Positions 14,621 through 30,314 of a stretch of 64,000 bases of DNA are shown here, one piece after another (positions within the stretch are counted from its first letter, which is position 1; each line of letters begins with the position of its first letter). Source of the DNA: Pseudorhodoferax aquiterrae (GTDB taxonomy: Bacteria > Pseudomonadota > Gammaproteobacteria > Burkholderiales > Burkholderiaceae_C); contig NZ_BMYK01000001.1 in NCBI RefSeq assembly GCF_014652235.1, positions 248,001 to 312,000 of the forward strand, written 5' to 3'. The position numbers were made by a program, and so were the translations under genes. The notes below the pieces were generated by a model. The model did no database searches. It was not told the DNA's origin and worked only from the letters and a program-made list of their open reading frames with translations.

Positions 14621-14629
14621 ACAGGTTCG

Positions 14630-15045
14630 GGCCCAGTTCCCGAAGGACTGGTCGTTCTTGACGACGTCCTTCCAGCGCGCGATGTCGTCGTCGATGAAGC
14701 GCTGGAACCGCTCGGCCGGACCGGGCCCGCGCACGAGGCCGCTGCGCGTCGCCAGGCGGCCGAGGACCACCGGATCGGCCCAGACCTCGTCGACGGCCGC
14801 ACGGCGCTGGCCCACCACCGCATCGGGCAGGCCAGCCGGCCCCCTGCTCCCGTCGCAGACCCCGATGTCGTAGGCCGGGTGGGCGGCGTCGCCGAAGGTC
14901 GGCACGCCCGCGCCAGCCCATGGACGGCGAGGTGATGCGGCCCACGGCCGTGTCGCCCGGCAGCGGGTCGGTCCGCGCGCCGATCTGCCCGCCCGTCAGC
15001 GCACCCAGTGCATCGGCGCCGCCCTCGACAGATGCGGGCGATCTT
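14630..15045 (-). pseudogene. Bug/TctC receptor relic, frameshifted and truncated
   Basis: Two reading frames of the minus strand together resemble the C-terminal half of a Bug receptor. One (about 15035-14900) contains GGADALGALTGGQIGARTD, the typical receptor stretch after YKG; another (14905-14632) contains VPTFGDAAHPAYDIGV, then ADPVVLGRLA and the ending FIDDDIARWKDVVKND. The frame changes near 14900, the stop codon is missing, and the N-terminal half is absent: homology ends where AT-rich DNA begins near 15050. The gene is dead. It marks an old breakpoint beside the polysaccharide cluster. Confidence 0.75.
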
Positions 15046-15134
15046 GCCGTGCCGCATGGTGAGAGAGACATCAACCGTATTGTTTAATCGAATGCAATAT
15101 CTTCATTTTGTCTACTTTTAGTGCTGTTTGGATA

Positions 15135-15164
15135 TTGACTTGCACAGATCCATAGCACGATATT
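15135..15164 (+). promoter_or_regulatory. possible sigma-70 promoter of the polysaccharide cluster
   Basis: TTGACT (15135-15140) and GATATT (15159-15164) with an 18-base spacer lie in a conspicuously AT-rich stretch, 15060-15290, otherwise unlike this high-GC window. No gene was found in that stretch. The elements precede the glycosyltransferase gene by about 150 bases, leaving a long leader. Assignment rests on consensus match only. Confidence 0.4.
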
Positions 15165-15315
15165 GAGGTGAGTGCGTACCGAGTTGCATAGAGTTCACAA
15201 CTGTCACATGCAGTTGTTCTATTCTCAACAAACAGTCTCTGTCAAAAACTACAATTGTGTACGTTGAGGTACTGTTTTTTGTGGGGCTTCGCATTGCGTG
15301 CGGAGAGGGGGAGCC

Positions 15316-16758
15316 TTGAAAAAAATACCAAGGTGCGGTTGCTGGGGCCGCATGCCAGCGCAGCGCTGGCTGCGCGCCGCGTGGGGGGCCGTTGCCATCG
15401 CCGGTGTGCCGGGTGCGCGGGCTGGTGCCATGTCGCTGACGATTTCCAGCCCTTTGGGCGACGCCTGGGCATGGTCGCTGGGCGGGCTCATGGGACTGGT
15501 GATGGTGTTGCTGACGGTCTACACGGCGCGCCACTACGTCTTCTCGCTGAACCGCCTGTTCAGCCGCCAGCGCAACCCCTACGCCAGCCTGGTCCACGCC
15601 GAATGGCCCCGCGTGACCATCTTCGTCGCCGCGCACAACGAAGAAGACGTGATCCGCGACTGCCTGGAGAACCTGATGCGCGTCGACTACCCGGCCGATC
15701 GCATGCTGGTGGTGCCGGTCAACGACCGCTCGACCGACCGCACGCGCGAGATCGTCGACGAGGTCGTCTCACGGTTTCCAGGCCGCATCCGGCCCTTCCA
15801 CCGCACTGGCGGCAAGCCCGGCAAGGCTGCGGCGCTCAAGGACGCCACCGAGACCGTCGACACCGACTTCATCATCGTCTTCGATGCGGACTACATGCCC
15901 TCGCGCGGGCTGATCCGCCGCCTGATGGCGCCGTTCTTCGACCCCGAGGTCGGCGCCGTGATGGGCCGCGTGGTCCCGCTCAACGTGGGCGCCAATCTGC
16001 TGACCCGCTTGCTCGACCTGGAGCGCTCCGGCGGCTACCAGGTCGACCAGCAGGCGCGCATGAACCTGGGGCTGGTGCCGCAATACGGCGGCACCGTCGG
16101 TGGCATCCGCATCAGCGCACTCCAAGCCGTGGGCGGCTGGCACGACGACGTGCTGGCCGAGGACACCGACCTGACCTACCGGCTGCTGCCGGGTGGCTGG
16201 CGCACGGTCTACCACAACCGGGCCGAGTGCTATGAGGAAGTGCCGCAGAACTGGTCCGTGCGCATGCGCCAGATCAAGCGCTGGTCCAAGGGCCACAACC
16301 AGGCCATGGTGCGCCACAGTGCCGCGCTGCTGCGCCAGCCCGATCTGCGCTGGACCGAGCGCATCGACGGCGCCTTGCTGCTGGGCGTCTACATGATGTC
16401 GCCCGTGCTGCTGTTCGGCTGGGTGCTCAGCGTGCTGATGTACTTCACGGTCAGCATGCAGTGGCTGGCGCCTGCGCTGATGGTCATGGCCTTCATGGCC
16501 CACAGCGCGCTCGGCAACTTCGCCGCCTTTTTCGAGATCGCCACCGCGACCCACCTGGACCGCTCGCGCCAGCGCATCCGGCTGCTGGCGTTCTCGTTCC
16601 TGGGCTTCATCGTGAGTGCCGTGGCCATCATGCGTTCGGTCTACGAGCAGGTGCTGACCGACCGGCTGCCGGGCGGCAAGTTCCAGTGGGACAAGACCGT
16701 GCGCTACCGCCGCGCCAGTCCGGTCGTCGCCATGCCTCCTGCCAAGGCCGGCCCGTGA
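15316..16758 (+). CDS. processive family 2 glycosyltransferase (polysaccharide synthase)
   Basis: A 480-residue membrane synthase of the cellulose/PNAG/hyaluronan type, polymerising a sugar from its nucleotide donor and probably extruding the chain. The GT-A catalytic set is complete: NDRSTDRT (136-143), FDADY (189-193), AEDTDLTYRLL (281-291, the catalytic Asp) and QIKRWSKGHNQ (319-329, the QxxRW motif). One helix at about 53-75 precedes the domain and at least three follow. The start is uncertain; TTG 15316 was taken because GGAGAGGGGGAG lies just upstream, and GTG 15298 or ATG 15352 are alternatives. It heads a chain of overlapping genes with deacetylase-like proteins and WecB. Confidence 0.88.
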   Translation: MKKIPRCGCWGRMPAQRWLRAAWGAVAIAGVPGARAGAMSLTISSPLGDAWAWSLGGLMGLVMVLLTVYTARHYVFSLNRLFSRQRNPYASLVHAEWPRVTIFVAAHNEEDVIRDCLENLMRVDYPADRMLVVPVNDRSTDRTREIVDEVVSRFPGRIRPFHRTGGKPGKAAALKDATETVDTDFIIVFDADYMPSRGLIRRLMAPFFDPEVGAVMGRVVPLNVGANLLTRLLDLERSGGYQVDQQARMNLGLVPQYGGTVGGIRISALQAVGGWHDDVLAEDTDLTYRLLPGGWRTVYHNRAECYEEVPQNWSVRMRQIKRWSKGHNQAMVRHSAALLRQPDLRWTERIDGALLLGVYMMSPVLLFGWVLSVLMYFTVSMQWLAPALMVMAFMAHSALGNFAAFFEIATATHLDRSRQRIRLLAFSFLGFIVSAVAIMRSVYEQVLTDRLPGGKFQWDKTVRYRRASPVVAMPPAKAGP

Positions 16759-17846
16759 AGCTCGCGTTGCTGTTGCTGGCGACCTTCGCGGTGATGCTGC
16801 TGCCCATGCTGCCGGCACTGGTGGAGTGGCTGCGTCCGAGCGACGTGCAGCCGCTGCGCATCGACGCGGCCGACGCGCTGGACCCGCCCTATCTGGCGCG
16901 CAGCTTCGCCACGCGCCTGGCCGAGGCGGTGACCACTGGCACGGGCGCGCTCGGCAGCACCGCCATCGTGGCCTGTTCCGCTGCGGATGAGGCGCTGCCG
17001 TTGGACGCGGCCGAGCAGGCCGCGCGCGCAAGCCACCGCCTGTGGTACGCCGAGGGCGACCTTTGCCTGCCGGACGGCATGGCGTTCTATGCCGAGGTGG
17101 CGACCACGGGCGACCTGCGCACCGCCAGGCGTGGCATCTACAAGGCCTTGTGGGCTCGCGGCGCCGTGCGGCTCGCGGCCCATTCCTCGGTGCTGCGTTG
17201 GGCGCATGGGGACCGACTGTTCGTGGACGAGGGCTGCCACCTCGCCGGCCGCGTGACGGCCGAGCGCCTGCTGGTGCTCGCGCCGGGCGCCGACTTCCTG
17301 CTGCTGCATGCGCCCTGCGTGCAATTCCTGCCGCGTGGACCCAGGCCGGTGCTGGCTGCCGTGCCGGGCGACGGCGCGGCGTTGACCGGCGTGCGCTGGG
17401 ACGCCTCGGGCCGCCGCGCCATCCGCAGCGGCGCGCTCGCCGTGCCGGCCGGCACCGCCTGGCAGGGCGATCTGGTGTGCCATGGCGACCTGGTGCTGGG
17501 ACCGCGCTGCGTGGTCGGCGGCAGCCTCAAGGTGCGGGGCCGGCTCACGGCGGGCCCGGGCTGCACCTTCGCGGGCAACGTGTTCGTCGAACGCGAGGCC
17601 GCACTCGGAGCGGGTTGCACCGTGCGCGGGGTGCTGATGTCCGAGGTGGCCCTCGCGCTCGGTAGCGGCTGCACGCTGGGCACGCTGGCCGCGCAGACCA
17701 CCGTGGCCGCGCCGCGCATCGAGATCGGGGCCGGCGTGCAGGTCCACGGCACGGTCTGGGCCGAGGTGCAAGGCCGTTGCGTGGCGGCCCTGGCATCGGC
17801 GCCCGAACCGGCGCCGCCCGTCGCTGCCCAGGCGGTCGCGCCATGA
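16755..17846 (+). CDS. bactofilin-like polymer-forming protein with N-terminal membrane anchor
   Basis: A 363-residue protein starting with GTG in the stop of the synthase gene. Residues 1-20 form one hydrophobic segment (LALLLLATFAVMLLPML). The middle is unrecognised. Residues about 235-345 are a beta-solenoid-like run with short glycine and valine periods (GDLVCHGDLVLGPRCVVGG, LKVRGRLTAGPGCTFAGNV, ALGSGCTLG), as in bactofilins and related polymer-forming domains. Bactofilins scaffold envelope enzymes, so this could organise the synthase or deacetylases. The fold call is by pattern only and the large N-terminal region is unusual for a bactofilin. Confidence 0.65.
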   Translation: MKLALLLLATFAVMLLPMLPALVEWLRPSDVQPLRIDAADALDPPYLARSFATRLAEAVTTGTGALGSTAIVACSAADEALPLDAAEQAARASHRLWYAEGDLCLPDGMAFYAEVATTGDLRTARRGIYKALWARGAVRLAAHSSVLRWAHGDRLFVDEGCHLAGRVTAERLLVLAPGADFLLLHAPCVQFLPRGPRPVLAAVPGDGAALTGVRWDASGRRAIRSGALAVPAGTAWQGDLVCHGDLVLGPRCVVGGSLKVRGRLTAGPGCTFAGNVFVEREAALGAGCTVRGVLMSEVALALGSGCTLGTLAAQTTVAAPRIEIGAGVQVHGTVWAEVQGRCVAALASAPEPAPPVAAQAVAP

Positions 17847-19768
17847 GCGGCCAGGCGTCTCCAACCCGCGTCTGGCTGGTGCGCGCAGCCCTGGTGCTGG
17901 CGGCCGTGGCGGCGTTCGTGGTGTTCGGCCGGTTGAGCGGCACCGCAAGACCTTCCGGCGAGGTCGCCACGCGGCTGGCGCTGCTGATCCCCGATGAGCT
18001 GTCCACCAGCGACCCGCATGTGCAGGCCTGGGAGGATGCCGCGGCCGAGCTGGGCTTCGGCCTGTCGGTGGTGCGTGCGTCCGACCTGCTGCGCGCCGGC
18101 GGGATGCCCCAGGGGGCCGCGCTGATCCTGCCCGACCAGGTGCACCGCCGCATGAACGACGCGCTGGTGAAGGCGCTGGAGCAGCGCGTGCTGGCCGGCA
18201 CGCAACTGCTGTTGGTGCACGACGCCGGCGTCCAGGACCTGGCCGGCAGCTATCCGCCGGGTGCCTCGCGCCTGTCCGACCTGGCCGGCGTGTCGTACGC
18301 GCTGTACGAAGAGCTGCGTGGCCGCATGTCGGGCGACCACGTGGCCTGGGTGGAAGGCGCTGCCGTGCCCTTGTTGCGGCTGCCGCCGGGCAAGCTGATC
18401 CGCGACGGCGAAGGAGAGCCGCTCAGCAGCGACCAGCCGCCACCGGGCGACGACGAGCCGCTCGCGGTGGTGGGCTACCACTACGGGCGGCTCACCTACT
18501 CGGTGTTCGCCACGCGCGGCGCTTTCGCGGGCAAGCGCCTGATGCACGCCGACGACGGCAGCCTGCTGGCCGGCGTGCACCGCGTGGGCAAGGGCCAGGT
18601 GTTGTTCGTCAACTTGCCGCTGACCTACCTCAAGCTGCGCACGGATGGCCTGTTCCTGCACGCCTTCCTGCGCTACTTCGCACAGGACCTGGTCGGGCTG
18701 CCGCAGCTCTCGCCGGTACCCGATGCCAAGGGCGCATTGATCATGAACTGGCACGTCGACGCGGCCGCGGCCGTGCCGGCCATCGAAGCGCTGGAGGCGT
18801 TGGGCGTGTTCGAGCAGGGTCCGTACTCGATCCACCTGACGGCCGGGCCCGATGTCGACCACCCCGGCGATGGCCAGGGCATGGACCTGGCCCACAACCC
18901 CAGCATGCAGTAGTGGGTGCGCCGCTTCGTCGCGCGCGGCGACGAGGTCGGCAGCCATGGCGGCTGGATCCACAACGCCTTCGGCCGGGATGTCGGGACG
19001 CGAAAGCCCGCGGCGTCGATCCCGTTCCTCGAGCGCAACCTGCAGGCCGTGCGTGCGGCCAGCGGCAAGCCCGTGCGCGAATACTCGGCGCCGCTGGGCA
19101 ACCATCCGGCCTGGAAGACGCCGTGGCTGCGCGACCAGGGCATCCAGGCCTACTACTTCACGGGCGACATCGGCATGGCACCCACGCGCAGCTACCAGGA
19201 TGGCAAGCGCAGCCCGTCCGGCATGTGGGCCTTCCCGGTGCTGAGCTACGGCGCGCATGCCAGCTTCGAGGAGACCTCGTTCGCCGGCATCGCGCAGCGC
19301 GACATCGGCGCCTGGCTCAAGGACGTGGCCGACTTCTGCGCCCAGTACCGCACGGTGCGGCTGGTGTACTTCCACCCGCCCGGCGTCGCGCTGTTTCCGG
19401 ACGCCTTCCGCGATTGGCTGCAGCACACCAGGCAACTGGTGGACGACGGCACGCTGCGCTGGATCACCATGGCCGGCTACACCGCGTTCGCCAACGAGCG
19501 GCTGGCCGTCGACTGGAGCACGCGGGCCGCCGACGGCGCCGAATGGCTGGAGGCGGACCATCCGCGTTCGCTCGCGCACTTCGCCTGGCTGCTGCCGGCT
19601 CGCCGCTACGACGCGCCGCAGGTGCTGCAGGGCCAGGCCGAAATCGCGCGCCAGGGCGATGCCTGGCGCGTCATCGCCGGCCCCGGGACCCGGTTGCGGC
19701 TGCGGCTGCCCCTGCACGCCGCCACGCCGCCCACCGCTTCGATCTCCAACGCATCCGCATCTCCATGA
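17843..19768 (+). pseudogene. polysaccharide deacetylase-like protein interrupted by an in-frame amber codon
   Basis: The frame encodes 641 residues but is split by TAG at 18911-18913 (codon 357). The part before it (356 codons) has a membrane anchor at 12-29 and the NWHVD motif near residue 302. The part after holds GSHGGWIHN (from about 370) and SAPLGNHPAW, REYS and FHPPG stretches. Both halves align with the intact paralog at 23937. NWHVD and SHGGWIHN look like the Asp and His-x-x-x-His metal motifs of CE4-type deacetylases, so the stop separates the two. No frameshift is present and both sides keep normal coding character. Overlaps its neighbours by ATGA at both ends. Recent nonsense mutation, read-through, or a sequencing error are all possible. 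Confidence 0.8.
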
Positions 19769-20937
19769 CCGCATCTTCCACACCGACCGGCCGACCCATC
19801 CTCATTTCGGTCGGCACCCGCCCCGAGATCATCAAGATGGCGCCGGTCTACGCCGAACTGCGCCGGCGCGGCCAGGCCGTGGCCTGGGTGCACAGCGGCC
19901 AGCACCGTGAAATGGCGCAGTCGCTGTACGACTTCTTCGACATCCGGCCCGAGTACGAACTGCAGCTGCAGCGCCGCAATGGCAGCCTGGCGCACCTGAA
20001 CGCGCTGCTGCTGGAAAGCCTGAGCGCCGTCTACGAACAGGCGCAACCGGCCGCGGTGCTGGTGCACGGCGACACCACCAGCACGCTGGCCTCGGCCCAG
20101 GCGGCCTTCTACCTGGACATCCCGATCGGCCATGTGGAAGCGGGGCTGCGCACCTTCCAGCCGCGCGAGCCCTTTCCCGAGGAGAAGAACCGCGAACTGA
20201 CGGCGCGCCTGGCGCACTGGCACTTCGCGCCCACCGCGGGCGCCGCGGCCAACCTGGCACGCGAGGGCATCGCTGCCGACGCCGTGCACGTGGTCGGCAA
20301 CACCGCGGTGGACGCCGCGCTGGGCGGCGCGGCGCGGCTGGACCACCTGCTGGCCAGTGGTGCGCTGGCGCTGCCCGAGCCCTTGCAGCGGCTGCGCCCC
20401 TGGCTGGCGCATGGCCGTCTCATCACCGTCACCGCGCACCGGCGCGAGAACTGGGGTGCCGGCATCCGCGACATCGCGCGCGCCGTGGCGCGGCTGCTGC
20501 AGGCCGATCCGCGCTTGGCGGTCGCCTGGCCCGTGCATGGCAATCCGGCCGTCGCCGACACCGTGCATGCCGAGCTTGGCGAACTGGCCACGCGGCTGGA
20601 AGGCCGGCTGTGCCTGTGCCCGCCGCTGGACTATCCGGCGTTGCTGTGGTGCCTGCAGAACAGCGCGCTGGCGCTGACCGACTCGGGCGGCATCCAGGAG
20701 GAGGGCGCGGCGCTGTCGCGCCCGGTGCTGGTGCTGCGCGACACCACGGAGCGGCCCGAACTCATCGAGGCCGGCGCCGGCATGGTCGTGGGCACCGACA
20801 TGCAGCGCATCGTCGGCTGCGTGACGCGCCTGCTGTGCGAGGGCGACGAACTGGCGCGCATGCGCGCAGCGGTCAACCCCTTCGGCGACGGCCGCACAGC
20901 GCAGCGCATCGCCGATGTGCTGTCGGGCGCGCGATGA
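19765..20937 (+). CDS. wecB: UDP-N-acetylglucosamine 2-epimerase (non-hydrolysing)
   Basis: A 390-residue GT-B-fold enzyme that interconverts UDP-GlcNAc and UDP-ManNAc. All family blocks are present: VGTRPEIIKMAPV, HSGQHREM, VHGDTTSTLASA, GHVEAGLRTF, FPEEKNRELT, TAHRRENWG, and the UDP site TDSGGIQEEG with RDTTERPE. It starts in an ATGA overlap with the deacetylase gene and ends in one with the barrel gene, so it is part of the polysaccharide operon. Its presence next to the synthase suggests that the polymer contains ManNAc or a derivative; an alternative is supply to another envelope glycan. Confidence 0.94.
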   Translation: MTASSTPTGRPILISVGTRPEIIKMAPVYAELRRRGQAVAWVHSGQHREMAQSLYDFFDIRPEYELQLQRRNGSLAHLNALLLESLSAVYEQAQPAAVLVHGDTTSTLASAQAAFYLDIPIGHVEAGLRTFQPREPFPEEKNRELTARLAHWHFAPTAGAAANLAREGIAADAVHVVGNTAVDAALGGAARLDHLLASGALALPEPLQRLRPWLAHGRLITVTAHRRENWGAGIRDIARAVARLLQADPRLAVAWPVHGNPAVADTVHAELGELATRLEGRLCLCPPLDYPALLWCLQNSALALTDSGGIQEEGAALSRPVLVLRDTTERPELIEAGAGMVVGTDMQRIVGCVTRLLCEGDELARMRAAVNPFGDGRTAQRIADVLSGAR

Positions 20938-21794
20938 GGCCGCGCGGGTGCACCGGCCGCCTGGCCTGGGCGGCAGCGCTGGCATGCGTGCTGTGCGGCG
21001 CCGCGCAGGCGCAGACGGCCGGGCCGTTGACGGCGGAGCCATCGGCACCGGCGCCGGCTCCCGCGCCGGCTCCGGGCCCGGTGTCCTCGCGCATGACCTG
21101 GGACCTGCAGACCACGCACAGCAAGCTCAGTGCCGGGCTGCCGGACGGCGAGACGGTCAACCTGCGTGGGGCCATCACGCTGGACAACGGCGACGTGCTG
21201 AACCTCGAACTGCTGCGCGAGCGCAAGTTCGGAGACACCGGCGGCGTGGCGGCCGGCAGCTACACCTTGCAGCTGTCGGACCGCTGGTACGTGGTGCAGT
21301 CGCTGGCGTTCGGCGCGGGGGGAGAGAACTGGTCCATCCTGCGCTCGGACACGCAGCTCTCGCGCAAGTGGCTGTCGCAAGGCCAGCTGGTCACCTCGGC
21401 CGCGGTCTACGGCGCGGCGCTGCACCGCAACCGCAGCGAGGCCGGCATGCGTCTGGCCATGGCCTGGTACCTGCCGGCACCGGTGGTGCTGGAGAGCGGC
21501 GTGGTGCTCAACATCAGCCAGCCGCGCAACCGGTTCTCGTACATGCCCTTCGCCAGCATGACGGTGGGACGCGAAGGCGCGGCCTACTTCAGCCTGCGCG
21601 TGGCCAGCGGCACCGAGGCCTACCAATCCATCGGCGCACGCTCCGAGCTGGTGGACTTCCGCAGCACCAGTGTGATGGCGACCGGGCGCGTGTGGCTCGG
21701 CCAGCGCTGGGGCCTGAGCGCGCAGGCCGAGCGCTATTCCAACCCGAGCTACAAGCGCCACACGCTGGGTGTGGGCGTGTTCCTCACGTTCTGA
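20934..21794 (+). CDS. YaiO-like outer-membrane beta-barrel protein
   Basis: A 286-residue exported protein with a signal peptide ending about ALA...AQA and a Pro/Ala linker (PAPAPAPAPGP). The rest alternates polar and aromatic residues as in a small barrel, with YTLQLSDRWYVVQSL, SAQAERYSNPSYKRHTLG and the final strand LGVGVFLTF ending in Phe, the usual outer-membrane signal. YaiO-type barrels occur in biofilm and exopolysaccharide loci. Here it is the likely outer-membrane component of the cluster. No TPR porin of the PgaA or BcsC kind is encoded nearby, so export may run through this protein or an unlinked one. Confidence 0.68.
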   Translation: MRPRGCTGRLAWAAALACVLCGAAQAQTAGPLTAEPSAPAPAPAPAPGPVSSRMTWDLQTTHSKLSAGLPDGETVNLRGAITLDNGDVLNLELLRERKFGDTGGVAAGSYTLQLSDRWYVVQSLAFGAGGENWSILRSDTQLSRKWLSQGQLVTSAAVYGAALHRNRSEAGMRLAMAWYLPAPVVLESGVVLNISQPRNRFSYMPFASMTVGREGAAYFSLRVASGTEAYQSIGARSELVDFRSTSVMATGRVWLGQRWGLSAQAERYSNPSYKRHTLGVGVFLTF

Positions 21795-21807
21795 GCCGCA
21801 ACGCACC

Positions 21808-22629
21808 ATGGCCAAGTCCCCGCATGCCAAGTCCCGCGCCGCGGTCCGGCGCCTGAGCGTGCGCGGCCACCTGGGCGGCACCATCGCCCAGCACCGCGCC
21901 ATCTGGCGCCAGACGCTGCCCACGCAGCGTGTGCTGCAAAGCGTGGTGCTGGCAGGGGCCTTCAGCGCACTGCTGCTGTGGTCGCGGCCGTGGCTGGAAG
22001 CCGCCTGGACCGACACCTTGCTCTGGTGGATGCACGCGCTGGCGCTGCCGGGCCGCTTCCTGCCGGGCGACCCGAGCCAGGGCGGCGGCCTGGACCTGGT
22101 CGTGCCCCTCATCGTGCCCGAACTGCCGTTGTCCGATCCCTGGTCGCCGATGCGGCATGGCGCCGTCGTGCTGTTGCTGTGGTGGTGTTCGGGCTGGTTC
22201 TCCGACGCCGCCAAGCCGCTGGCCTTCTTCATCCGGCTCGGAGCGCTGGTGCACGGCGCCTCGGTGCTGTTCTTCATGTTCTGGCCGGCCAGCTTCACCC
22301 ACACCGTGAGCAGCCACGTGGCCAGCGGGCTGCGCCAGGCCTGGTACCTGATGCTGGCCACGCCCTGGATCCATCTGCTGACCTACTACCTGTTCCCGTT
22401 CGCGGCCTGGCAGCGCGTGGCGCTGACGCTGACCACGCTGGCCTTCCTGGCGCTGCTGACGCCGCTGCAGTACGCCGTGCATGCCGCGCTGGCGCAGATG
22501 AGCGGACTGATCCTGCTGCCGCTGCTGAACCTGGTGTTCGGCGTGATGCTGCCCGTGGTCGGCGTGGTCGCGCTGTACGGCTGGGGCATGGGTTGGCGCA
22601 ACCGGGGCATGGAGGCACGGCATGTCTAG
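21808..22629 (+). CDS. polytopic inner-membrane protein of the polysaccharide cluster, unknown function
   Basis: A 273-residue protein with a basic N-terminus (KSRAAVRRLSVRG) and about six hydrophobic segments (near 42-58, 70-80, 112-125, 142-165, 185-205 and 230-262). No family was recognised. It starts 13 bases after the barrel gene and its end overlaps the lipoprotein gene by eight bases, so it belongs to the same transcript. Possible roles are synthase partner, chain modification or assembly; nothing in the sequence decides. Confidence 0.7.
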   Translation: MAKSPHAKSRAAVRRLSVRGHLGGTIAQHRAIWRQTLPTQRVLQSVVLAGAFSALLLWSRPWLEAAWTDTLLWWMHALALPGRFLPGDPSQGGGLDLVVPLIVPELPLSDPWSPMRHGAVVLLLWWCSGWFSDAAKPLAFFIRLGALVHGASVLFFMFWPASFTHTVSSHVASGLRQAWYLMLATPWIHLLTYYLFPFAAWQRVALTLTTLAFLALLTPLQYAVHAALAQMSGLILLPLLNLVFGVMLPVVGVVALYGWGMGWRNRGMEARHV

Positions 22630-23875
22630 TGTGGCGGGCTGGCGCGCCATCGGTCTGATCGTGGCCGTGTTGCTGTCGGGCTGCGCGTCGGGCAAGGCCA
22701 CGGCACGCACCGGCACACCGGTCGTGCTGGCCACCCCGCTGGCGCCCGTGACCGAGCCTGCGGAAACTGCCTGCGACAAGGGCGGTCTGGTCGACGCCGG
22801 GTTCCGCGATGCCGCACTGGCAGCGCTGTCGCGGCTGGTGGTGCATGCGCCGGGCCTGGCGGCCGATGGTGCGGTCCGCGCCAACAGTGCACCCGGCCAC
22901 GTCGATCCCAGCGGGCAGGCCTGGCATTTCATCTCCGCCTACCAGGTCAATCTGGCGCTGATGGAGGCCTTGCGCGTGGCCCCCGGCAACGCGCCGGTCG
23001 CCGCCGGCTGGCTGCGCTGGCAGGCGCGCCACACCACGCCCACCGGGGCCGGGCAGGGGGTGGTATTCGACCACTGGATCCGTGTGTCGGACCTGCACGT
23101 GGCGCCATGCCCGCCCGGGCGCGTGCTCGGCGATTGCCCGCAGGTCGATGCTTACGACAGCACGGCGGCCTCCGCGCTGCTCATGGCCGATGCCTACCTG
23201 GCCGCGACCGGCGACGCCGCGCTGCTGCGCGAGCCCGCCGTGCGCGCCGCGCTGGAGCGTTCGGCGGGGACCGTGGTCGCACTCACCCAGCCCGACGGCC
23301 TGAGTTCGGCCAAGCCAGGCCATCGGGTGGAGTACCTGATGGACGCCGCCGAGGTGGTGGCCGGCTGGCGTGCCTGGGCCCGCGTGCAGCAGTCGGCCTA
23401 TGGCGACCGGGCCGGTGCCCAGGCCAGCCTGGATGCGGCCTGGCGCATGGAAGACGCCATGCGCCGGCAACTGTGGCATGCGCCCAGCCAGGCCTGGCGC
23501 GTGAGCCGGCAGGCCGGCGCGCCCGATGTTTCGGTGTGGTACCCGGACACCGTGGCGCAGGCCTGGCCGCTGCTGTGGGGGGTGCGCGGCCCGGCCGCCA
23601 CCGATGCCGCCACCGCCTGGCGCGACATGTCCGCGCGCTGGCGGGGCGCGGACGGCTGGACGCACCGCAATGTCGACCCCGATGGCTTCTGGTGGCCCGC
23701 CGCGGCAGTGGCGGCGCGTTGCGTGGGCCACGGGGCCGACGCGCGCCGTTGGGTCGCGCGCGCCCGCGCCGCATGGCTGGCGCCCGGCGATCCCTTCGCC
23801 TGGCCGTTCCAGGTCGGCGACCTGCGCTGGCTGTTCTGGCTGTCCGATCCCGCCGCGGTCGTGCCCCGGCCCTAG
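22622..23875 (+). CDS. lipoprotein, probable all-helical glycan-active enzyme (paralog A)
   Basis: A 417-residue lipoprotein: hydrophobic leader and lipobox LLSGC (Cys near 21). The body repeats helices rich in Trp and Ala, with SGQAWHFISAYQVNLALMEA, VDAYDSTAASALLMADAYL and SVWYPDTVAQAWPLLWGV. Such Trp-rich paired helices and the YDSTAAS loop recall six-hairpin (alpha/alpha)6 glycosidases and lyases, but no catalytic residues can be named. It is clearly paralogous to the lipoprotein at 26274, sharing long stretches (VVFDHW, YDSTAAS, YLMDA.EV.AGWRAWARVQQ). It overlaps the upstream gene and follows the same order deacetylase-like then lipoprotein as the second pair. Confidence 0.72.
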   Translation: MSSVAGWRAIGLIVAVLLSGCASGKATARTGTPVVLATPLAPVTEPAETACDKGGLVDAGFRDAALAALSRLVVHAPGLAADGAVRANSAPGHVDPSGQAWHFISAYQVNLALMEALRVAPGNAPVAAGWLRWQARHTTPTGAGQGVVFDHWIRVSDLHVAPCPPGRVLGDCPQVDAYDSTAASALLMADAYLAATGDAALLREPAVRAALERSAGTVVALTQPDGLSSAKPGHRVEYLMDAAEVVAGWRAWARVQQSAYGDRAGAQASLDAAWRMEDAMRRQLWHAPSQAWRVSRQAGAPDVSVWYPDTVAQAWPLLWGVRGPAATDAATAWRDMSARWRGADGWTHRNVDPDGFWWPAAAVAARCVGHGADARRWVARARAAWLAPGDPFAWPFQVGDLRWLFWLSDPAAVVPRP

Positions 23876-23936
23876 GCCATGCCTGCTCTGTCTCTCCGCG
23901 TTTCCCACTGATTGTTCTTTCAACAAGGATGCATCC

Positions 23937-26150
23937 ATGTCATTGACAGTTCTTGCCCGCCGCCTCGCCCTCTGGCGGCACCGAGGGGCGGCCGCGCTGT
24001 ATGCGCTGCTGCTGGTCCTGCTGGCCGGCCCGGGCCTGGCCCAGGCGAACAGCCGCGACAGCCTCACGCTGCTCGTGCCCGACGACGCCGACATCGCGAG
24101 CTGGCAGGTGAAGGTCTGGACCGACACCGCGGTCGAGGAGGGCCTGCAGATGAAGGTCATGAAGGCCTCCGCCTTCCTGGCGCTCGGCAGTTCGGCGAAC
24201 GCCAGCATCAGCGGTTTGGTCCTGCCCGACAGCGCCCACATCCGCGCCAGCGATCGCCTGGTGGAGGGCGTCAAGCAATACGTGTCCCGTGGCGGCAGGT
24301 TGTTGCTGGTCTACGATGCCGCCAGCCTGAACGACGGGGGCTTCTACGACGTCAGCGGCCGTTCACGCTTTTCCGACATGGTGGGCGTGGACTACGTGCT
24401 CTACGAAGCCCTGCGCGACCGGGTGGTGGGCTTTGGTCCCGTGGTCGGCACGCGTGGACGGCTCGACAACCTGTCGCTGCCGCCGGGCAAGTACATGCCC
24501 TATCCCGCCGCGACCAGCCCCACGGTCTCCCTGGCGGCCGCGACGCAAGTGCCCTACGTGCCGACCAGCCGGTTCGACCCCGGCGGTTCGGAGTTCATGC
24601 GCGCGTGGTACCGGGCCGGCTCCGCCACCGGCGCGCAACCGCGCGTGGCTTCGCTGCTAACGGGTCTGCGCTACGACGCGGCCGTCGCCGAAGCCACGCC
24701 GGCGCTGCGCTGGCTGCAGACGACGGGCCACACCTCCTTGCGCAGGCCCGACGACGTGAGCGCCGTGGTGGCACCCGGCGGGGCCGGCTGGACCGAGACC
24801 GCGCCGTGGCGCACGGCGGGCGACCTGGCGGCAGGCGACGCGGAACTGCAGGTCGTCAGTGGCTATGCCTTCGGCCCGCTCAGCTACTACAGCTTCGTCA
24901 CGACGGGCGCGTTTCCGGGCAATGTGTTCCTGAGCTCGCCCGAGTTCGGTCTCGTCGCCGGAGAGCGCAGCTATGGCTACGGCAAGCTGTTGTTCGTCAA
25001 TCTGCCGCTGGGATTCTTCAAGGCCATCGGCACCGACGGCGTGCTGTTGCACGGCGTGCTGGCCCACTTCGCGCGCGACCAGGTCGGCATGCCGCGGCTG
25101 GCAGTGCAGCCGCGCGGCATCGGCGGACTGGTCTACAACTGGCACGTGGACGATGGCGACGACATCGTGCCCGACTTCCGCGACATCATGGCCAGCAGCT
25201 TCATGGCCGGTGCCGGCCCGTTCTCCGTGCATTTCACGGCCGGCCCCGACGTCGACGTCGTGGGCGACCGGCTGGGCATGAACCTGTTGGGCAATCCCGC
25301 TGCCCAGGATGTGGTGCGGCGCACCGCCCGCACGGGTCCGTATACCTCGGCGTACGGTCTCGTGAAGCATGAAGTCGGCTCGCACGGGGGCTGGATCCAC
25401 AACATCTACGGCATCAACGCCAACGAGACCAACGCGGCCACCTATCTGCCCTGGTTGCAGTGGAACATGATGGCGGTGGACGAGGTGAGCGGCGAGCGCT
25501 CGCGCTCGTACTCCGCGCCGCAGGGCAACAACCCCAGCTGGGCCGTGGCCTGGAACGAGTTCTGGGGCATCGTCGGCATGTACACGGTCAGCAACACGGG
25601 CAGCCCTGCCACGCGCGAGTGGCGCGACGGCGCGCGGCTGGCGACCAAGCTGTGGTCCATGCCCGTCACCCCGTTCGGCATCTCCGCCACGTTCGAGGAC
25701 TTCGAGGCCAACGGTGTCAGCGACACCGCCTCGGCGCAATGGCTGCTGGACCTGCAGAGCTTCGTGGCCAACCGGCGCAGCAACCGCATGTTCTACAACC
25801 ATCCGCCTGGCGCGGCCGCGCACCTGGACGTGGTCAAGACCTTCGTGCAGCGCGGCAAGGCCCTGCGCGACAGCGGCCGCTTCAAGTGGTACACGATGGC
25901 CGAACTGGCGGACTTCTCGCAGCGCCGTGTCCAGACCGGCTGGGCCAGCTCCAGCACGTGGCTGGGCAAGGAAGTGTTCGTTCTCAACAATGGGCAGTCG
26001 CTGACCGACATCACCATGCTGCTGCCGCGCAGCCGCTACGGCATGCCGTTCGTGTTCTGGGGCGCGGGCTCCGTGTCCTCGGACGCCACCGACTGGATCG
26101 TGACCGCCCGCTCGGGGACGGAACTCAAGTTCTACACCGTGCCGCGCTGA
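23937..26150 (+). CDS. secreted polysaccharide deacetylase-like protein (intact paralog)
   Basis: A 737-residue exported protein. Signal peptide at about 1-36 (LYALLLVLLAGPGLAQA). Residues about 45-160 resemble the N-terminal part of the interrupted homolog (LLVPDDADIASWQVKVW, VLPDSAHI). The probable catalytic part has YNWHVDDGDDIVPDF near 400 and HEVGSHGGWIHN near 480, matching the Asp and His-x-x-x-His metal sites of CE4 deacetylases, and YNHPPGAAAH later. It carries an insertion of roughly 90 residues relative to the paralog (about 170-300). The ATG at 23937 is supported by AAGGA ten bases upstream. Deacetylation of the cluster's polymer is inferred. Confidence 0.76.
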   Translation: MSLTVLARRLALWRHRGAAALYALLLVLLAGPGLAQANSRDSLTLLVPDDADIASWQVKVWTDTAVEEGLQMKVMKASAFLALGSSANASISGLVLPDSAHIRASDRLVEGVKQYVSRGGRLLLVYDAASLNDGGFYDVSGRSRFSDMVGVDYVLYEALRDRVVGFGPVVGTRGRLDNLSLPPGKYMPYPAATSPTVSLAAATQVPYVPTSRFDPGGSEFMRAWYRAGSATGAQPRVASLLTGLRYDAAVAEATPALRWLQTTGHTSLRRPDDVSAVVAPGGAGWTETAPWRTAGDLAAGDAELQVVSGYAFGPLSYYSFVTTGAFPGNVFLSSPEFGLVAGERSYGYGKLLFVNLPLGFFKAIGTDGVLLHGVLAHFARDQVGMPRLAVQPRGIGGLVYNWHVDDGDDIVPDFRDIMASSFMAGAGPFSVHFTAGPDVDVVGDRLGMNLLGNPAAQDVVRRTARTGPYTSAYGLVKHEVGSHGGWIHNIYGINANETNAATYLPWLQWNMMAVDEVSGERSRSYSAPQGNNPSWAVAWNEFWGIVGMYTVSNTGSPATREWRDGARLATKLWSMPVTPFGISATFEDFEANGVSDTASAQWLLDLQSFVANRRSNRMFYNHPPGAAAHLDVVKTFVQRGKALRDSGRFKWYTMAELADFSQRRVQTGWASSSTWLGKEVFVLNNGQSLTDITMLLPRSRYGMPFVFWGAGSVSSDATDWIVTARSGTELKFYTVPR

Positions 26151-26273
26151 CGCCGGCCGGTGCGCTCCAAGCGACGGCCGGCCACGGCACGGCGCGTCTG
26201 ACCCGCGACCGCGGCGCACAGTGGTGCCCGCGGCGGACGCGCGGTGCGTCCCGCCTCTCACGAGGAGGCTGCC

Positions 26274-27530
26274 ATGGCACGCGTGTCGCTGGTTTGGCAA
26301 GCAGGACTGTTGGCGGTCGCCATGTCGGCGGTCGGGTGTTCGGGGGGCGATGGCGCTGTTGCGCCGCCGGGGTCTGGCCCCGAAGCGGCGCCGCTGCAGG
26401 CGGCCGCCCTCGACACGGTGCGCGCCTGCCCCGGTGGTGGCCTGGTCGATGCTGCGTTCCGCGATGCGGCGCTGGCCATGTTCAGGCAGCTGGCGGTCCA
26501 GGCGCCAGGGCGCGACGCCCACGGGGCGGTGAGGATGCACTGGACCCCTGGCCACCGCGACCTGCAGGGCCAGGCCTGGTACCAGGTGCAGGCCTACCAG
26601 GCCAACCTGTCGGTCGTGCAGGTGCTGCGCACCGACCCCACCTTGGCGCCGCTGGCTGCCGACTGGCTGCGCTGGCAGGCGCGCCACATGCGCGCCGTGG
26701 GGCAGGGGCAAGGCGTGGTGTTCGACCATTGGCTGCGCGCAGCCGACCTGCAGGTGGCGGCCTGCCCGCCCGCACTGGCCGGGCCCTGCCCTTTCGTGGA
26801 TTCATACGACAGTACGGCCGCTTCGATGCTGATGGTGGCGGACAGCTACCACGCTGTGACCGGCGACGTGGCCGTGCTGCGCGAGGCCGCGGTGCAGGCA
26901 GCCTTGCGCGCCTCGGCCGCCACGGTGGCTGCGCTGCACCAGGCGGATGGACTGACCTGGGCCAAGCCCGACTACTCCGTGGCCTACCTGATGGACGCGG
27001 TCGAGGTGGCTGCCGGGTGGCGTGCCTGGGCCCGCGTCCAGCAGGCGGCCTACGGTGACACCGCCGGTGCCGCACGCAGCGTGGCCATGGCCCAGCGAAC
27101 CGAGGATGCGACGCGGGCGCTGCTGTGGCATGCCCCCAGCCAGACCTGGCGCCATGCGGTGCAGGCAGGGGCGCCAGATTTCTCCCGCTGGTACGCCGAC
27201 ACCGTGGCGCAGGCGTGGCCGCTGTTGTGGGGCGTGGAAGGTCCGCGCAGCGGCGACGCCGCCAACGCCTGGCGCCGTGCCTCGGCGCGCTGGCTGGGCG
27301 CGGACGACTGGTCGCGGCGCAATGTGGACGCGGCGGGATTCTGGTGGCCCGCCGCCGCCGTCGCCGCACAGTGCGTGGGCGACACGGCATCGGCCCGCGC
27401 CTGGATCGCCCGCGCCCGCGACGCCTGGCTCCGTCCCGAGCAGCCGTTCCCCTGGACCTTCCATGTCGGCGACCTGCGCTGGTTGCTCTGGATGGCCGAT
27501 CCGCGTGGCGCGGTCTCCGGCAGGCGCTGA
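26274..27530 (+). CDS. lipoprotein, probable all-helical glycan-active enzyme (paralog B)
   Basis: A 418-residue lipoprotein with lipobox SAVGC (Cys near 22), starting after CGAGGAGG. It matches paralog A over the whole length: GGLVDAAFRDAALA, VVFDHWLRAADLQVA, VDSYDSTAASMLMVADSY, YLMDAVEVAAGWRAWARVQQ, RWYADTVAQAWPLLWGV and GFWWPAAAVAAQCVG. About two thirds of residues look identical in these parts. With the preceding deacetylase-like gene it forms a second copy of a two-gene module. It ends 14 bases from the convergent regulator gene. Possible glycoside hydrolase or lyase; the reaction is unknown. Confidence 0.74.
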   Translation: MARVSLVWQAGLLAVAMSAVGCSGGDGAVAPPGSGPEAAPLQAAALDTVRACPGGGLVDAAFRDAALAMFRQLAVQAPGRDAHGAVRMHWTPGHRDLQGQAWYQVQAYQANLSVVQVLRTDPTLAPLAADWLRWQARHMRAVGQGQGVVFDHWLRAADLQVAACPPALAGPCPFVDSYDSTAASMLMVADSYHAVTGDVAVLREAAVQAALRASAATVAALHQADGLTWAKPDYSVAYLMDAVEVAAGWRAWARVQQAAYGDTAGAARSVAMAQRTEDATRALLWHAPSQTWRHAVQAGAPDFSRWYADTVAQAWPLLWGVEGPRSGDAANAWRRASARWLGADDWSRRNVDAAGFWWPAAAVAAQCVGDTASARAWIARARDAWLRPEQPFPWTFHVGDLRWLLWMADPRGAVSGRR

Positions 27531-27544
27531 CGCGCCGCCGCGTC

Positions 27545-30223
27545 TCAGCGAATCACACCCAGCTTGCGCGCGATCGCCACCGCTTGGGTGCGGCTCTTGG
27601 CGTCCAGCTTCATGTTGATGTTGCGCAGGTGCGTGCGCACCGTGCTGTCCGAGACGAACAGCTTCTCGGCCATGGCGCTGTTGGAATAGCCCTCGGCCAG
27701 CAGCTGCAGCACGCGGATCTCCTTGCGCGTGAGCGGCTCCTCGCTGCCGCCGGCGGCCGGGGCCGGCGCCTCGGGCTCGGCCGCGGCGAGCGGGCCGATG
27801 GCGTGCAGCAGGCGCTGCAGGTGCTCGGCCTGGATCGGGTCGGCCGCATCGGGCATGGCCGCGGCATAGCGCTGCAGCAGCCGGCCCACCGCCGGGCCCT
27901 CGTCCAGGATCAGGCGCATGAAGCCCTCCTGGCTCGCCGTTTGCAGCACGGCGCCGATTTCCGCCGCGGCGCCGGCCGCATCGCCGGCACGCTGCAGGGC
28001 CAGCGCGCGCAGCACCTGCAGCTTGAGCACGCGGCGCATGCGCGCGGCCGTGGTGGCGGCGTGGATCTCGGCGTCCAGCAGCTGCAGCGCGGCGCGGGCA
28101 TCGCCGAAGGCGACCTCCCAGCGCGCCTTGGCCAGCGCCAGGTAGTCCAGGTCGTGCGCGGGCAGGCGCATGCGGCGCTCGCGCTCCCAGATCGCCGGGT
28201 CGTCCGCGCGCTGCAACTCGTCGCGCGCGGCCGGGCCGTTGCCCTGCAGCAGCAGCATGCGCGAGCGCTCCAGCTTGGCGCCGGCCACCACGCGCGGCAG
28301 CTGGCGCGCATGGCCCAGGTACTCCAGCTCGGTCAGCGCCTGCAGGGCGGCTTCCACGTCGCCGCTGTGGAAGGCGATGCGCGAGCGCATCACGTGCGAC
28401 AGGATCATGTGGTCGGGCAGGCCCACGTCGCGCGCCAGCGGCAGGTAGACGTTGAGCAGGTGCTCGGCCTGCGGCAGCTGGTTGGCCTCGTAGACCACGC
28501 CGGCGTACAGCACGCCGGCCCAGGCGTTGCCGTGGCTGTGGTTGTAGGTCACGGCATGGGTGGAATCGACCGCGATGCGAAAGCGCGCCGTGGCCTGGCG
28601 CAGGCGCCCGGCCTGCAGGTCCAGCATGCCCTCGGAGGCCTCGGTGTACATGCGGTGGAAGGTGCCGTCGCGCTTGGCATGGCCCTGCTTGCTGCGCGCG
28701 GCATCCAGCAGGCGCTGCGAGGCATGCTGATCGCCCATGACCGACAGGATGTGGGCCATGGCATTGAGCAGCGCGCTGTCGGCGAAGGCCAGGCCCGTGG
28801 GCAGGCGGTTCAGGCAGGCGCGGCCGGCCTCGTAGGCCTCGTCGTAGCGGTCCTGCATGGCCCATAGCAGCGGGTACAGCGTGTGCGCGCAGGCGCGCAC
28901 CTCGGGCAGCGGGCTGTGCACGCAGTCCGAGGCCTCCAGCCTGGCCATCGCATCCCAGGGGCCGTGCGTGAAGCACTCGGCCCACAGCGCGATGAGCTGC
29001 AGGAAGGGGTACTGGCGCAGCTGGTGCTCGGGGATGGCGGCGAACCAGCGCGCCAGCAGCCGCATGCGGCCCTGTTCGAGGAACTGCTCGGCCCAGGTGT
29101 CGAGCAGCGTCAGTGCATGGGGATGGTCGCCGCCTTCGATGGCGTGGTCGATGGCCGGTACCGGCCGGCCCTGCGATTCGTACCAGCCCGAAGCCGCCAG
29201 GTGCAGCCGCGCGAGTTCGTCGGGCTGCTCGCGCGCGAGCTGGGCACGCAGGAAGTCGGCGAACAGGCTGTGGTAGCGCCAGGCCTGGGGCGCATCGCCG
29301 GCCTCGCTGCTGATGGGGGTGAGGAACAGGTCGGCCGCGGCCAGCTGCTCCAGGATGGCCGCGCTGTTGCCGCGCGGGATCAGCGCCTGGCAGACGGACG
29401 GGTCGAGCTGGCGCAGGATGCTGGTGCGCAGCAGGAAGTCGCGGATGGCGCCGGGCTGGTGCGCCAGCACGTCCTCGGCCAGGTACTCGGCCACGGCGCG
29501 GTTGGAGCCCGAGAAGCGTTCGACGAAGTCGGGTGCCACGCCCGGACGCTCCAGCGCCATCGAGGCCAGCCAGATCGCCGCCACCCAGCCCTCGGTCTTG
29601 CGGTGCAGCTGGCCCAGCCGCTCGGCCGACAGCGCCGGCAGGGCGCGCTGGCTCAGGAAGGCGCCGGTCTCCTCCAGGCTGAAGCGCAGCCGGTCGGTGT
29701 CGATCTCCAGCAGCTGGCCACGCGCGCGCAGCCGGCCCAGGCCCAGGTCGGGCAGGCTGCGCGAGCCGATCACGATGCGGCCGCCGCGTGGCATGTGCTC
29801 GACGATCTCGCGCACCAGGCCCAGCACGGCGGGCTCGTGCACCACCTCGAACTCGTCCAGGAACAGCGCGAACGGCGCGTCGTGCGCGGCCAGCACGGCC
29901 ACGGCATCGAAGGGCGCGTTGCCGCGGGGGCCGTCCATGCCCAGGCGCAACACCACCTCGCCCAGGCAGGTGACGAAGCGCGACATGTCGTTGTCGGCCC
30001 GGTCCAGCGTGAGCCAGGCCGTGGCGATGCCCTGCTCGTCCAGGTGCTGGCGTGCCTGCGCCATCGTGGTGGTCTTGCCGAAGCCGGCTGGCGCGCGCAC
30101 CAGCACCAGCCGGGCGGCGGTGCCGGCGATCTCACCGGCGATGGCGGCGCGCAGCACCTGGGTCGGCGCGACCGAGGGCGGGTTGAGCTTGGCTTCGAGG
30201 ATGCGGGTGGCGGAAGGCGGCAT
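27545..30223 (-). CDS. LAL-type (MalT/AlkS-like) LuxR-family transcriptional activator
   Basis: An 892-residue regulator. The Walker A motif RAPAGFGKTT lies near 43-52 and a Walker B-like FALFLDEFE follows, giving the STAND ATPase of MalT/AlkS-type proteins. Next come helical TPR-like repeats, a low-complexity Ala/Pro hinge, and a C-terminal LuxR helix-turn-helix at about 828-892 (LTRKEIRVLQLLAEGYSN, VSDSTVRTHLRNI). The length matches MalT (901) and AlkS. It diverges from nitronate monooxygenase, with a regulon palindrome (30315-30330) between. A TAGGAG -10-like element 21 bases from the palindrome points at this gene. It is the best candidate activator of the palindrome regulon. ATG 30223 was chosen; an upstream TTG at 30271 would lie almost at the predicted transcript start. 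Confidence 0.92.
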   Translation of the reverse strand: MPPSATRILEAKLNPPSVAPTQVLRAAIAGEIAGTAARLVLVRAPAGFGKTTTMAQARQHLDEQGIATAWLTLDRADNDMSRFVTCLGEVVLRLGMDGPRGNAPFDAVAVLAAHDAPFALFLDEFEVVHEPAVLGLVREIVEHMPRGGRIVIGSRSLPDLGLGRLRARGQLLEIDTDRLRFSLEETGAFLSQRALPALSAERLGQLHRKTEGWVAAIWLASMALERPGVAPDFVERFSGSNRAVAEYLAEDVLAHQPGAIRDFLLRTSILRQLDPSVCQALIPRGNSAAILEQLAAADLFLTPISSEAGDAPQAWRYHSLFADFLRAQLAREQPDELARLHLAASGWYESQGRPVPAIDHAIEGGDHPHALTLLDTWAEQFLEQGRMRLLARWFAAIPEHQLRQYPFLQLIALWAECFTHGPWDAMARLEASDCVHSPLPEVRACAHTLYPLLWAMQDRYDEAYEAGRACLNRLPTGLAFADSALLNAMAHILSVMGDQHASQRLLDAARSKQGHAKRDGTFHRMYTEASEGMLDLQAGRLRQATARFRIAVDSTHAVTYNHSHGNAWAGVLYAGVVYEANQLPQAEHLLNVYLPLARDVGLPDHMILSHVMRSRIAFHSGDVEAALQALTELEYLGHARQLPRVVAGAKLERSRMLLLQGNGPAARDELQRADDPAIWERERRMRLPAHDLDYLALAKARWEVAFGDARAALQLLDAEIHAATTAARMRRVLKLQVLRALALQRAGDAAGAAAEIGAVLQTASQEGFMRLILDEGPAVGRLLQRYAAAMPDAADPIQAEHLQRLLHAIGPLAAAEPEAPAPAAGGSEEPLTRKEIRVLQLLAEGYSNSAMAEKLFVSDSTVRTHLRNINMKLDAKSRTQAVAIARKLGVIR

Positions 30224-30314
30224 CGCGGTCGGAGAAGGGGGCGGCGGTCGAGCGTGGAGTGTCCGCGGCAAGCGGCCGCGGGCTTGTCTCCTAGGGCGCA
30301 GGGCTGGCGGCGTT

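Follow-up and report, generated by a model that had tools for sequence, protein, structure and literature searches.

Genetic organisation of the cluster

We analysed a stretch of 64,000 nucleotides from Pseudorhodoferax aquiterrae (contig NZ_BMYK01000001.1, positions 248,001 to 312,000), here called the window, in which nine genes, named A to I, lie together on the + strand and span positions 15430-27530. The cluster was found to be real and conserved, and it is undescribed within the literature searched. An earlier note on this DNA had taken it for an unfamiliar polysaccharide cluster, subject to a match with an already described exopolysaccharide system; no description of the gene set was found in the open-access literature, most subscription journals lying outside the scope of the search. 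The genes are as follows.

Gene A, 15430..16758, + strand: processive glycosyltransferase family 2 (GT2) synthase, 442 aa, with the motifs DAD, AED and QIKRW.
Gene B, 16755..17846, + strand: N-terminal hydrophobic segment and C-terminal bactofilin-like beta-helix.
Gene C, 17843..19768, + strand: N-terminal hydrophobic segment followed by GATase-like, NodB-like and beta parts; in-frame TAG at 18911-18913.
Gene D, 19765..20937, + strand: WecB, non-hydrolysing UDP-N-acetylglucosamine (UDP-GlcNAc) 2-epimerase, 390 aa.
Gene E, 20934..21794, + strand: YaiO-family outer-membrane beta-barrel, 286 aa.
Gene F, 21808..22629, + strand: membrane protein conserved with the cluster, 273 aa.
Gene G, 22622..23875, + strand: lipoprotein (lipobox identified by eye) with an (alpha/alpha)6-barrel glycosidase fold, 417 aa.
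Gene H, 23937..26150, + strand: intact paralogue of C, 737 aa, with a signal-peptide-like N-terminus (by eye).
Gene I, 26274..27530, + strand: lipoprotein and paralogue of G (66% identity in the alignment), 418 aa.

Overlaps of 4 bases were found at the A/B, B/C, C/D and D/E junctions and one of 8 bases at F/G, while gaps of 13, 61 and 123 bases separate E from F, G from H and H from I, respectively. The start of A was provisionally taken as the ATG at 15430, and a start codon further upstream may apply. The start of E, the ATG at 20934, overlaps the stop codon of D, and the family scans of E were run from 20937. Comparison of the window with its sister gave omega values of 0.11-0.28 for all cluster genes, indicating purifying selection.

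The earlier note had listed nine mostly overlapping genes, and this was borne out, with all nine on the + strand and overlaps at five junctions. Its assignments of the GT2, bactofilin-like, WecB and YaiO proteins agreed with our Pfam and NCBIfam scans (Bactofilin below threshold), and F, which it called polytopic, gave three strong hydrophobic segments when scanned crudely. What it described as two Trp-rich lipoproteins are lipoproteins, to which structure prediction of G adds a glycosidase-fold family. The in-frame TAG that breaks C had escaped it.

Conservation of the cluster across genomes

Searching named bacterial genomes with a profile of C and H yielded 160 relatives. The best 80 of the 160, together with the window and the loci L014 and L017, gave 83 loci, which were scanned with a profile of each gene (labels with L denote loci, i.e. 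the stretches examined, and labels with G denote genomes). A was present in 70 of the 83 loci. Within those 70, B was found in 70, C/H in 70, D, E and F in 67 each and G/I in 53; C/H was the search bait, so its 70 of 70 holds by construction. The counts are loci and not independent events, as some are near-copies (L028 and L103 belong to genomes already in the set). The earlier note had proposed looking for the gene order in other genomes; the gene set recurs there, in several orders. D was missing from L064, L068 and L073, although a piece of it was seen in L073 in another scan. E and F were missing from L068 and L078, both truncated by contig ends, and from L101 of Bradyrhizobium, in which the B match was weak too (48 bits). 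The most frequent orders were D-A-B-G-C-E-F and D-A-B-C-E-F (12 loci each), next to the window type A-B-C-D-E-F-G-H-I. Among the 13 loci without A, 8 were short or truncated by contig ends and 5 were full-length with an unlinked C/H gene (L085, L087, L088, L094 and L095). The assembly of L094 has a cluster elsewhere (L037).

Searched with F, the class gave matches in 6 of 369 genomes, comprising the own genome, four new full-length matches and one match of 36 residues (L172), whose stretch held no cluster gene. Matches were obtained in 4 of 398 genomes of the phylum, all previously found. In the four new clusters A, B and E adjoin F in 4 of 4 and D in 3 of 4; C/H and G were each seen in 1 of 4 within the stretches read. 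Genome G016 carries D-A-B-G-E-F together (L158), with C/H on a different contig (L016). Because the F-based search keeps A, B and E and mostly loses C/H and G, we concluded that the steady core is A, B, E and F, usually with D, and that C/H and G/I are accessory or able to act from elsewhere.

When 24 representative loci were compared, relatives of any one flanking open reading frame (ORF) turned up in at most 3 of the other 23 loci; therefore it is the cluster and not its surroundings that is conserved. The same set occurs in distant genomes with different flanks, and the gene association is more than chance.

Among the best 80 of the 160 C/H relatives, those from Betaproteobacteria included Sphaerotilus, Leptothrix, Ralstonia, Cupriavidus, Collimonas, Comamonas, Limnohabitans and Burkholderia; others came from Gammaproteobacteria (Methylobacter, Lysobacter), one Bradyrhizobium, one Oligoflexia fragment and 20 Acidobacteriota assemblies (counted from titles). 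The closest named relatives of the window were Variovorax boronicumulans DE0202 and Pseudorhodoferax sp. Leaf267. Prevalence was low: C/H was present in 5 of 300 genomes from the order and in 3 of 6 from the genus, both counts including the own genome. One matching record, from Cupriavidus and unannotated at that place, was found in the plasmid collection.

The synthase, the epimerase and the sugar

A is the sole processive GT2 of the cluster, matches Pfam Glyco_tranf_2_3 (8.8e-32) and carries the DxD, ED and QxxRW motifs. Its best NCBIfam model was PgaC_IcaA with 125.8 bits, far under the equivalog cut-off of 422.3. A separate true PgaC is encoded elsewhere in the genome (580.5 bits, G000:C3:121530-122744), and the same genome may be able to make poly-GlcNAc as well. 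At E<=1, Pfam detected no MshEN or other regulatory domain in A. D scored 368.8 bits with TIGR00236, above the equivalog cut-off of 210.15; a second WecB gene is located elsewhere in the genome. A dehydrogenase leading to N-acetylmannosaminuronic acid was not found among the cluster proteins in the Pfam scan. N-acetylmannosamine (ManNAc) is probably the sugar. The ManNAc-containing polymer of the earlier note gains support from the near-constant genomic linkage to WecB, 67 of 70 and 3 of 4.

The position and orientation of wecB vary among the clusters. A tree was calculated from 65 cluster WecBs and 28 others, the latter being the best matches from one sample of the order; L130 (copy of L012), L139 (copy of L017) and the distant second WecB of L083 were excluded, and L136, which lies within L158, was counted as a cluster WecB. 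The tree required 7 changes of cluster label, at least 5 of them forced by well-supported branches, and 6-7 in bootstrap trees. By this tree the cluster WecBs do not appear to be one clade, and repeated recruitment or replacement of the epimerase seems the simplest reading. A need for UDP-ManNAc would explain such repeated recruitment.

Alternatively, A could be a diverged poly-GlcNAc synthase making a Pga-like GlcNAc polymer, with WecB balancing UDP-GlcNAc or serving another envelope glycan. PgaC/IcaA is indeed the nearest curated synthase family of A, at 125.8 bits, and deacetylase and glycosidase partners are known in Pga too. We nevertheless regard a GlcNAc polymer as unlikely: the score of A is far under the PgaC cut-off, a true PgaC is present separately, and WecB accompanies 67 of 70 clusters, apparently recruited repeatedly.

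The bactofilin-like protein B

The window copy of B fell below the Pfam Bactofilin gathering cut-off (21.0 and 21.3 vs 27.9 bits), and the orthologue from G303 reached 28.4 bits when taken with its neighbours. All 41 B family members tested matched Bactofilin at E<=0.5. In a profile comparison by hhalign of B with 16 genuine bactofilins a probability of 84.9 over 101 columns was obtained, as against 0-0.1 for three control families. More positive charges follow than precede the hydrophobic segment in 69 of 71 B entries, a bias read from short N-tails and guessed start sites, and this favours, as a leaning only, an N-out/C-in orientation with the beta-helix in the cytoplasm. A bactofilin-like gene was found in every cluster with the synthase, 70 of 70 (one weak) and 4 of 4 of those found with F. 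This dedicated partner in each synthase cluster is the most surprising part of the system.

The deacetylase-fold proteins C and H

C is interrupted by the one in-frame TAG at 18911-18913, and uninterrupted copies are present in two genomes of the genus. Omega was 0.21 after the TAG vs 0.17 before it, so that constraint persists 3' of the stop. Because the sister copies are intact and the constraint continues after the stop, we read the TAG as a nonsense mutation of very recent origin, an error in the sequence or a site of readthrough. H and C share 38-39% identity, in two pieces. In G303 (Pseudorhodoferax sp. Leaf267) a further C/H paralogue, seen as two pieces in the profile scan, lies 3' of the cluster (L029:20.0-21.7 kb).

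The second half of C gave a weak Polysacc_deac_1 match (E 0.007, below the cut-off), and this family was matched by 49 of 63 C/H sequences at E<=0.1. A sequence profile search of the Protein Data Bank (PDB) with C/H returned only one deacetylase, at E 0.17. The AlphaFold2 (AF2) model of the intact sister C (L028, 602 aa) had a pLDDT of 94.3, and its residues 276-537 are NodB-like and CE4-like (3qbu, Z 23.0, root-mean-square deviation (rmsd) 2.5, 233 aligned). Outside this part the model is GATase-like and beta, with GH42-type matches spanning 24-602. The best Foldseek match was human NDST1; PelA (9cgy) aligned over 440 positions with Z 15.7 and a loose rmsd of 7.4, and Agd3 was not among the structure matches listed. 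On the model, the arrangement of C resembles that of PelA, with GATase-like, NodB-like and beta parts in that order. The structure prediction proposed earlier for the two deacetylase-like proteins returned, for C, a NodB-like domain in a PelA-like setting.

The 63 aligned C/H sequences all have H286, H354, H359, R488 and H493; at position 288, D occurs in 59 of them and C in 4. A metal site formed by the kept residues H354, H359, H493 and D/C288 is plausible from this conservation.

The barrel E, the membrane protein F and the lipoproteins G and I

E matched TIGR04390 with 106.3 bits (cut-off 32) and PF19413 with 43.4 bits (cut-off 23.9); an outer-membrane barrel is thus encoded in the same operon as the synthase. 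None of F, G, H and I matched a Pfam or NCBIfam family at E<=1, and the F family of 46 members had no credible Pfam, NCBIfam or PDB match.

The AF2 model of G (pLDDT 90.0) matched 9ju0 (Z 29.8, rmsd 2.8, 311 aligned) and the methylmannose-polysaccharide hydrolase MmpH (7qsj, Z 26.6, rmsd 2.8, 283 aligned). Some relatives of G matched MGH1-like_GH (4 of 38) or trehalase (2 of 38) in Pfam at E<=0.5. D118 and E186 are invariant in the G/I alignment and suggest a possible hydrolytic activity of these lipoproteins.

The presence of WecB, which is common in O-antigen and enterobacterial common antigen loci, and of a membrane protein without assigned family could also indicate an accessory cluster for a lipid-linked glycan or O-antigen. 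We consider this very improbable: the cluster encodes an outer-membrane barrel and glycosidase-fold lipoproteins instead, its flanks are not conserved, and neither the cluster proteins nor the 46 F homologues include a family of priming transferases, flippases, polymerases or ligases. Membership in the O-antigen systems was rejected by the same gene content (no Wzx, Wzy, WaaL or priming transferase), and the lipid-linked O-antigen pathway that the earlier note had allowed for finds no counterpart in these families.

Comparison with known systems

A parallel in logic is the Nfr system of Escherichia coli, in which a GT2 (NfrB), WecB and an outer-membrane pore are proposed to make a ManNAc polymer; the same logic was applied there, since nfrB is found linked to wecB in genomes that have only this one wecB (PMC8669469). 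Both Nfr (NfrB/NfrA/YbcH with NfrC, i.e. WecB, making the N4 receptor glycan NGR) and the cluster have a processive GT2, a WecB link, a proposed ManNAc polymer and an outer-membrane exporter; in the cluster the WecB link is a genomic linkage only (67 of 70 and 3 of 4). They differ in that NfrA is large and TPR-rich whereas E is a short YaiO barrel, that the A profile gave the whole NfrB protein no more than 22.5 bits and MshEN is not matched by A, and that profiles of B, C, F and G found nothing corresponding in the annotated operon nfrB-nfrA-ybcH. Membership in Nfr was rejected, with no MshEN in A.

Pga/Ica has the nearest curated GT2 family and, like the cluster, deacetylase-fold and glycosidase partners. 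No PgaA, PgaB or PgaD family was found among the cluster proteins, however, and the cluster has WecB; Pga membership was rejected by the score of A (125.8 vs a cut-off of 422.3) and by the true PgaC (580.5) elsewhere in the genome. In domain order the model of C resembles PelA of the Pel system, whereas the C/H motifs differ (H286, H-x4-H) and the glycosidase fold resides on separate lipoproteins; Pel was rejected by gene content, no other Pel family being present among the cluster proteins. Bacterial cellulose synthesis is reportedly another case in which a GT2 synthase has a cytoskeleton-like structural partner that may order the synthase. Bcs and the cluster both combine a GT2 with a structural partner, the latter being bactofilin-like in the cluster, and Bcs was rejected since no PilZ, BcsB or BcsC family was found among the cluster proteins. 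The statement of the earlier note that the cluster is unlike Pga, Bcs, Alg and Pel is supported by the gene content and the separate true PgaC.

In E. coli the set yaiS-yaiP-yaiX-yaiO (L174) has the GT2 YaiP (81.6 bits with the A profile, whole protein), YaiX and YaiO adjacent to each other and is possibly analogous. YaiX is acyltransferase-like, interrupted by IS2 and a marginal match to B (E 2e-4, 9.7 bits); WecB, C, F and G are lacking from this set. The fungal galactosaminogalactan deacetylase Agd3 is described as combining a GATase1/ThuA-like CBM87 with CE18 and beta-rich domains (PMC7229062), and by that description its domain order resembles that of the C model. The same text reports Agd3 homologues in uncharacterised bacterial exopolysaccharide operons, with Burkholderia among the hosts and the Gram-negative ones near Pel-like genes (PMC7229062). 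Two further candidates were rejected: the Rubrivivax psc1 polysaccharide locus, which has Wza, Wzx and Wzy and is of a different type (PMC3684757), and the Leptothrix/Sphaerotilus sheath genes, for which the terms tried gave no matching gene set (PMC13386937).

Proposed mechanism

We propose, with a probability of about 0.62, that the cluster encodes a synthase-dependent exopolysaccharide system for a ManNAc-containing polymer that is trimmed and probably deacetylated. The proposal builds on the gene content, the conservation and the predicted folds of C and G observed above; what we infer from these is which sugar is used, that the chains are deacetylated and hydrolysed, what B, E and F do and in which direction the polymer flows. 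In this scheme D (WecB) would convert UDP-GlcNAc to UDP-ManNAc, and A would polymerise the sugar at the inner membrane and thread the chain into the periplasm. F would probably be part of the inner-membrane complex, and B would be anchored beside A, its bactofilin-like domain probably in the cytoplasm, and organise the synthase. In the periplasm C and H would strip N-acetyl groups and G and I would cut or trim the chains, which E would then pass across the outer membrane. The predicted folds of C and G would fit enzymes that modify and hydrolyse exopolysaccharides.

Several points weigh against this proposal. Its support is genomic and computational. C is broken in the window, where its intact paralogue H is present. 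In motif 1 a His replaces the base Asp in all 63 C/H sequences (if aligned by distance to D288), the pattern being (N or D)-x-H-x-(D or C) in 63 of 63 in place of the Asp-Asp of CE4, and motif 2 reads H-x4-H in 63 of 63 instead of H-x3-H. Both the motif 1 and the H-x4-H spacing differ from the CE4, CE18 and PelA motifs given in PMC12022489. With residues that differ from those of the published enzymes, C/H may deacetylate weakly, in an altered way or not at all. It is further absent from 3 of 4 stretches found with F and unlinked in G016, and D is absent from 3 of 70 clusters and 1 of 4 found with F. Several rows of the WecB tree are long-branched and drew warnings, and some or all of the label changes may reflect loss of the gene or its ordinary turnover. 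E. coli YaiO gave 1.2 bits with the E profile, i.e. no match, and YaiO barrels are not known to let polysaccharides pass. Deacetylation of the polymer is less certain than the earlier note implied, given the non-canonical motifs and the absence of C/H from 3 of 4 stretches.

The altered motifs and the clusters without C/H nearby would also suit a polymer that combines ManNAc with another sugar, or C/H proteins that are sugar-binding or other esterase proteins and not N-deacetylases; in Agd3 the GATase1/ThuA-like domain is described as a carbohydrate-binding module (PMC7229062). The cluster proteins include one glycosyltransferase only, however, and the candidate metal residues are kept (H354, H359 and H493 in 63 of 63; position 288 D in 59 or C in 4). 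We therefore judge such a polymer or function to be a rather remote prospect.

Extending the proposed ManNAc system, poly-ManNAc could be deacetylated to a cationic polymannosamine while the bactofilin-like partner, by polymerising at the cytoplasmic side of the membrane, determines where, or in which array, the polymer exits. We offer this extension as a speculation and consider it doubtful. If true, a bactofilin-type cytoskeleton would be built into a polysaccharide machine, a new class of exopolysaccharide.

Few synthase-dependent exopolysaccharide machines are known. The cluster may stand for an unrecognised matrix polymer that is fairly widespread though sparse, in soil, water and opportunistic genera and in Acidobacteriota; genera carrying relatives include Ralstonia, Cupriavidus, Collimonas, Sphaerotilus, Leptothrix and Burkholderia. 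Through the cluster, a connection between bactofilin-type scaffolds and the secretion of polymers becomes open to test. The cluster would also be an independent example of the ManNAc polymer that has been proposed for the adsorption of phage N4, and its proteins are candidates for new families of glycosidases and deacetylases.

Regulation and neighbouring features

No general regulator was found for the clusters. The Pfam scan of the cluster proteins detected no PilZ or MshEN domain, and a scan of the clusters for sigma-54 sites gave nothing consistent. For 11 of 70 clusters an ORF of at least 150 codons with a GG[D/E]EF pentapeptide lies no more than 10 kb away; some of these matches may be due to chance, as in L053 (inside the cluster) and L029 (inside the cluster span). 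All five A-bearing Sphaerotilus/Leptothrix loci (L033, L034, L035, L036 and L100) have a GGDEF/GGEEF ORF at about 5 kb in the locus, which is encoded on the other strand and precedes the cluster by about 1.7-2.0 kb, and a link to cyclic di-GMP in this group is possible on these motifs. Sigma-54 activators with a VpsR domain adjoin 2 of 75 clusters (L168:13642-15066, +, and L170:4434-5870, -), another possible link to cyclic di-GMP, at two distant clusters.

With Rfam no match was obtained at the gathering threshold within 14000-29000. A terminator-like inverted repeat lies at 15197-15217, approx. 210 bases 5' of A; a search of L026 and L027 did not recover its core pattern. On the - strand an ORF of 908 aa with a LuxR-type C-terminus, presumably MalT-like, extends over 27545-30271 and converges with the cluster, and an ORF of the same length follows the cluster in the sister L026.

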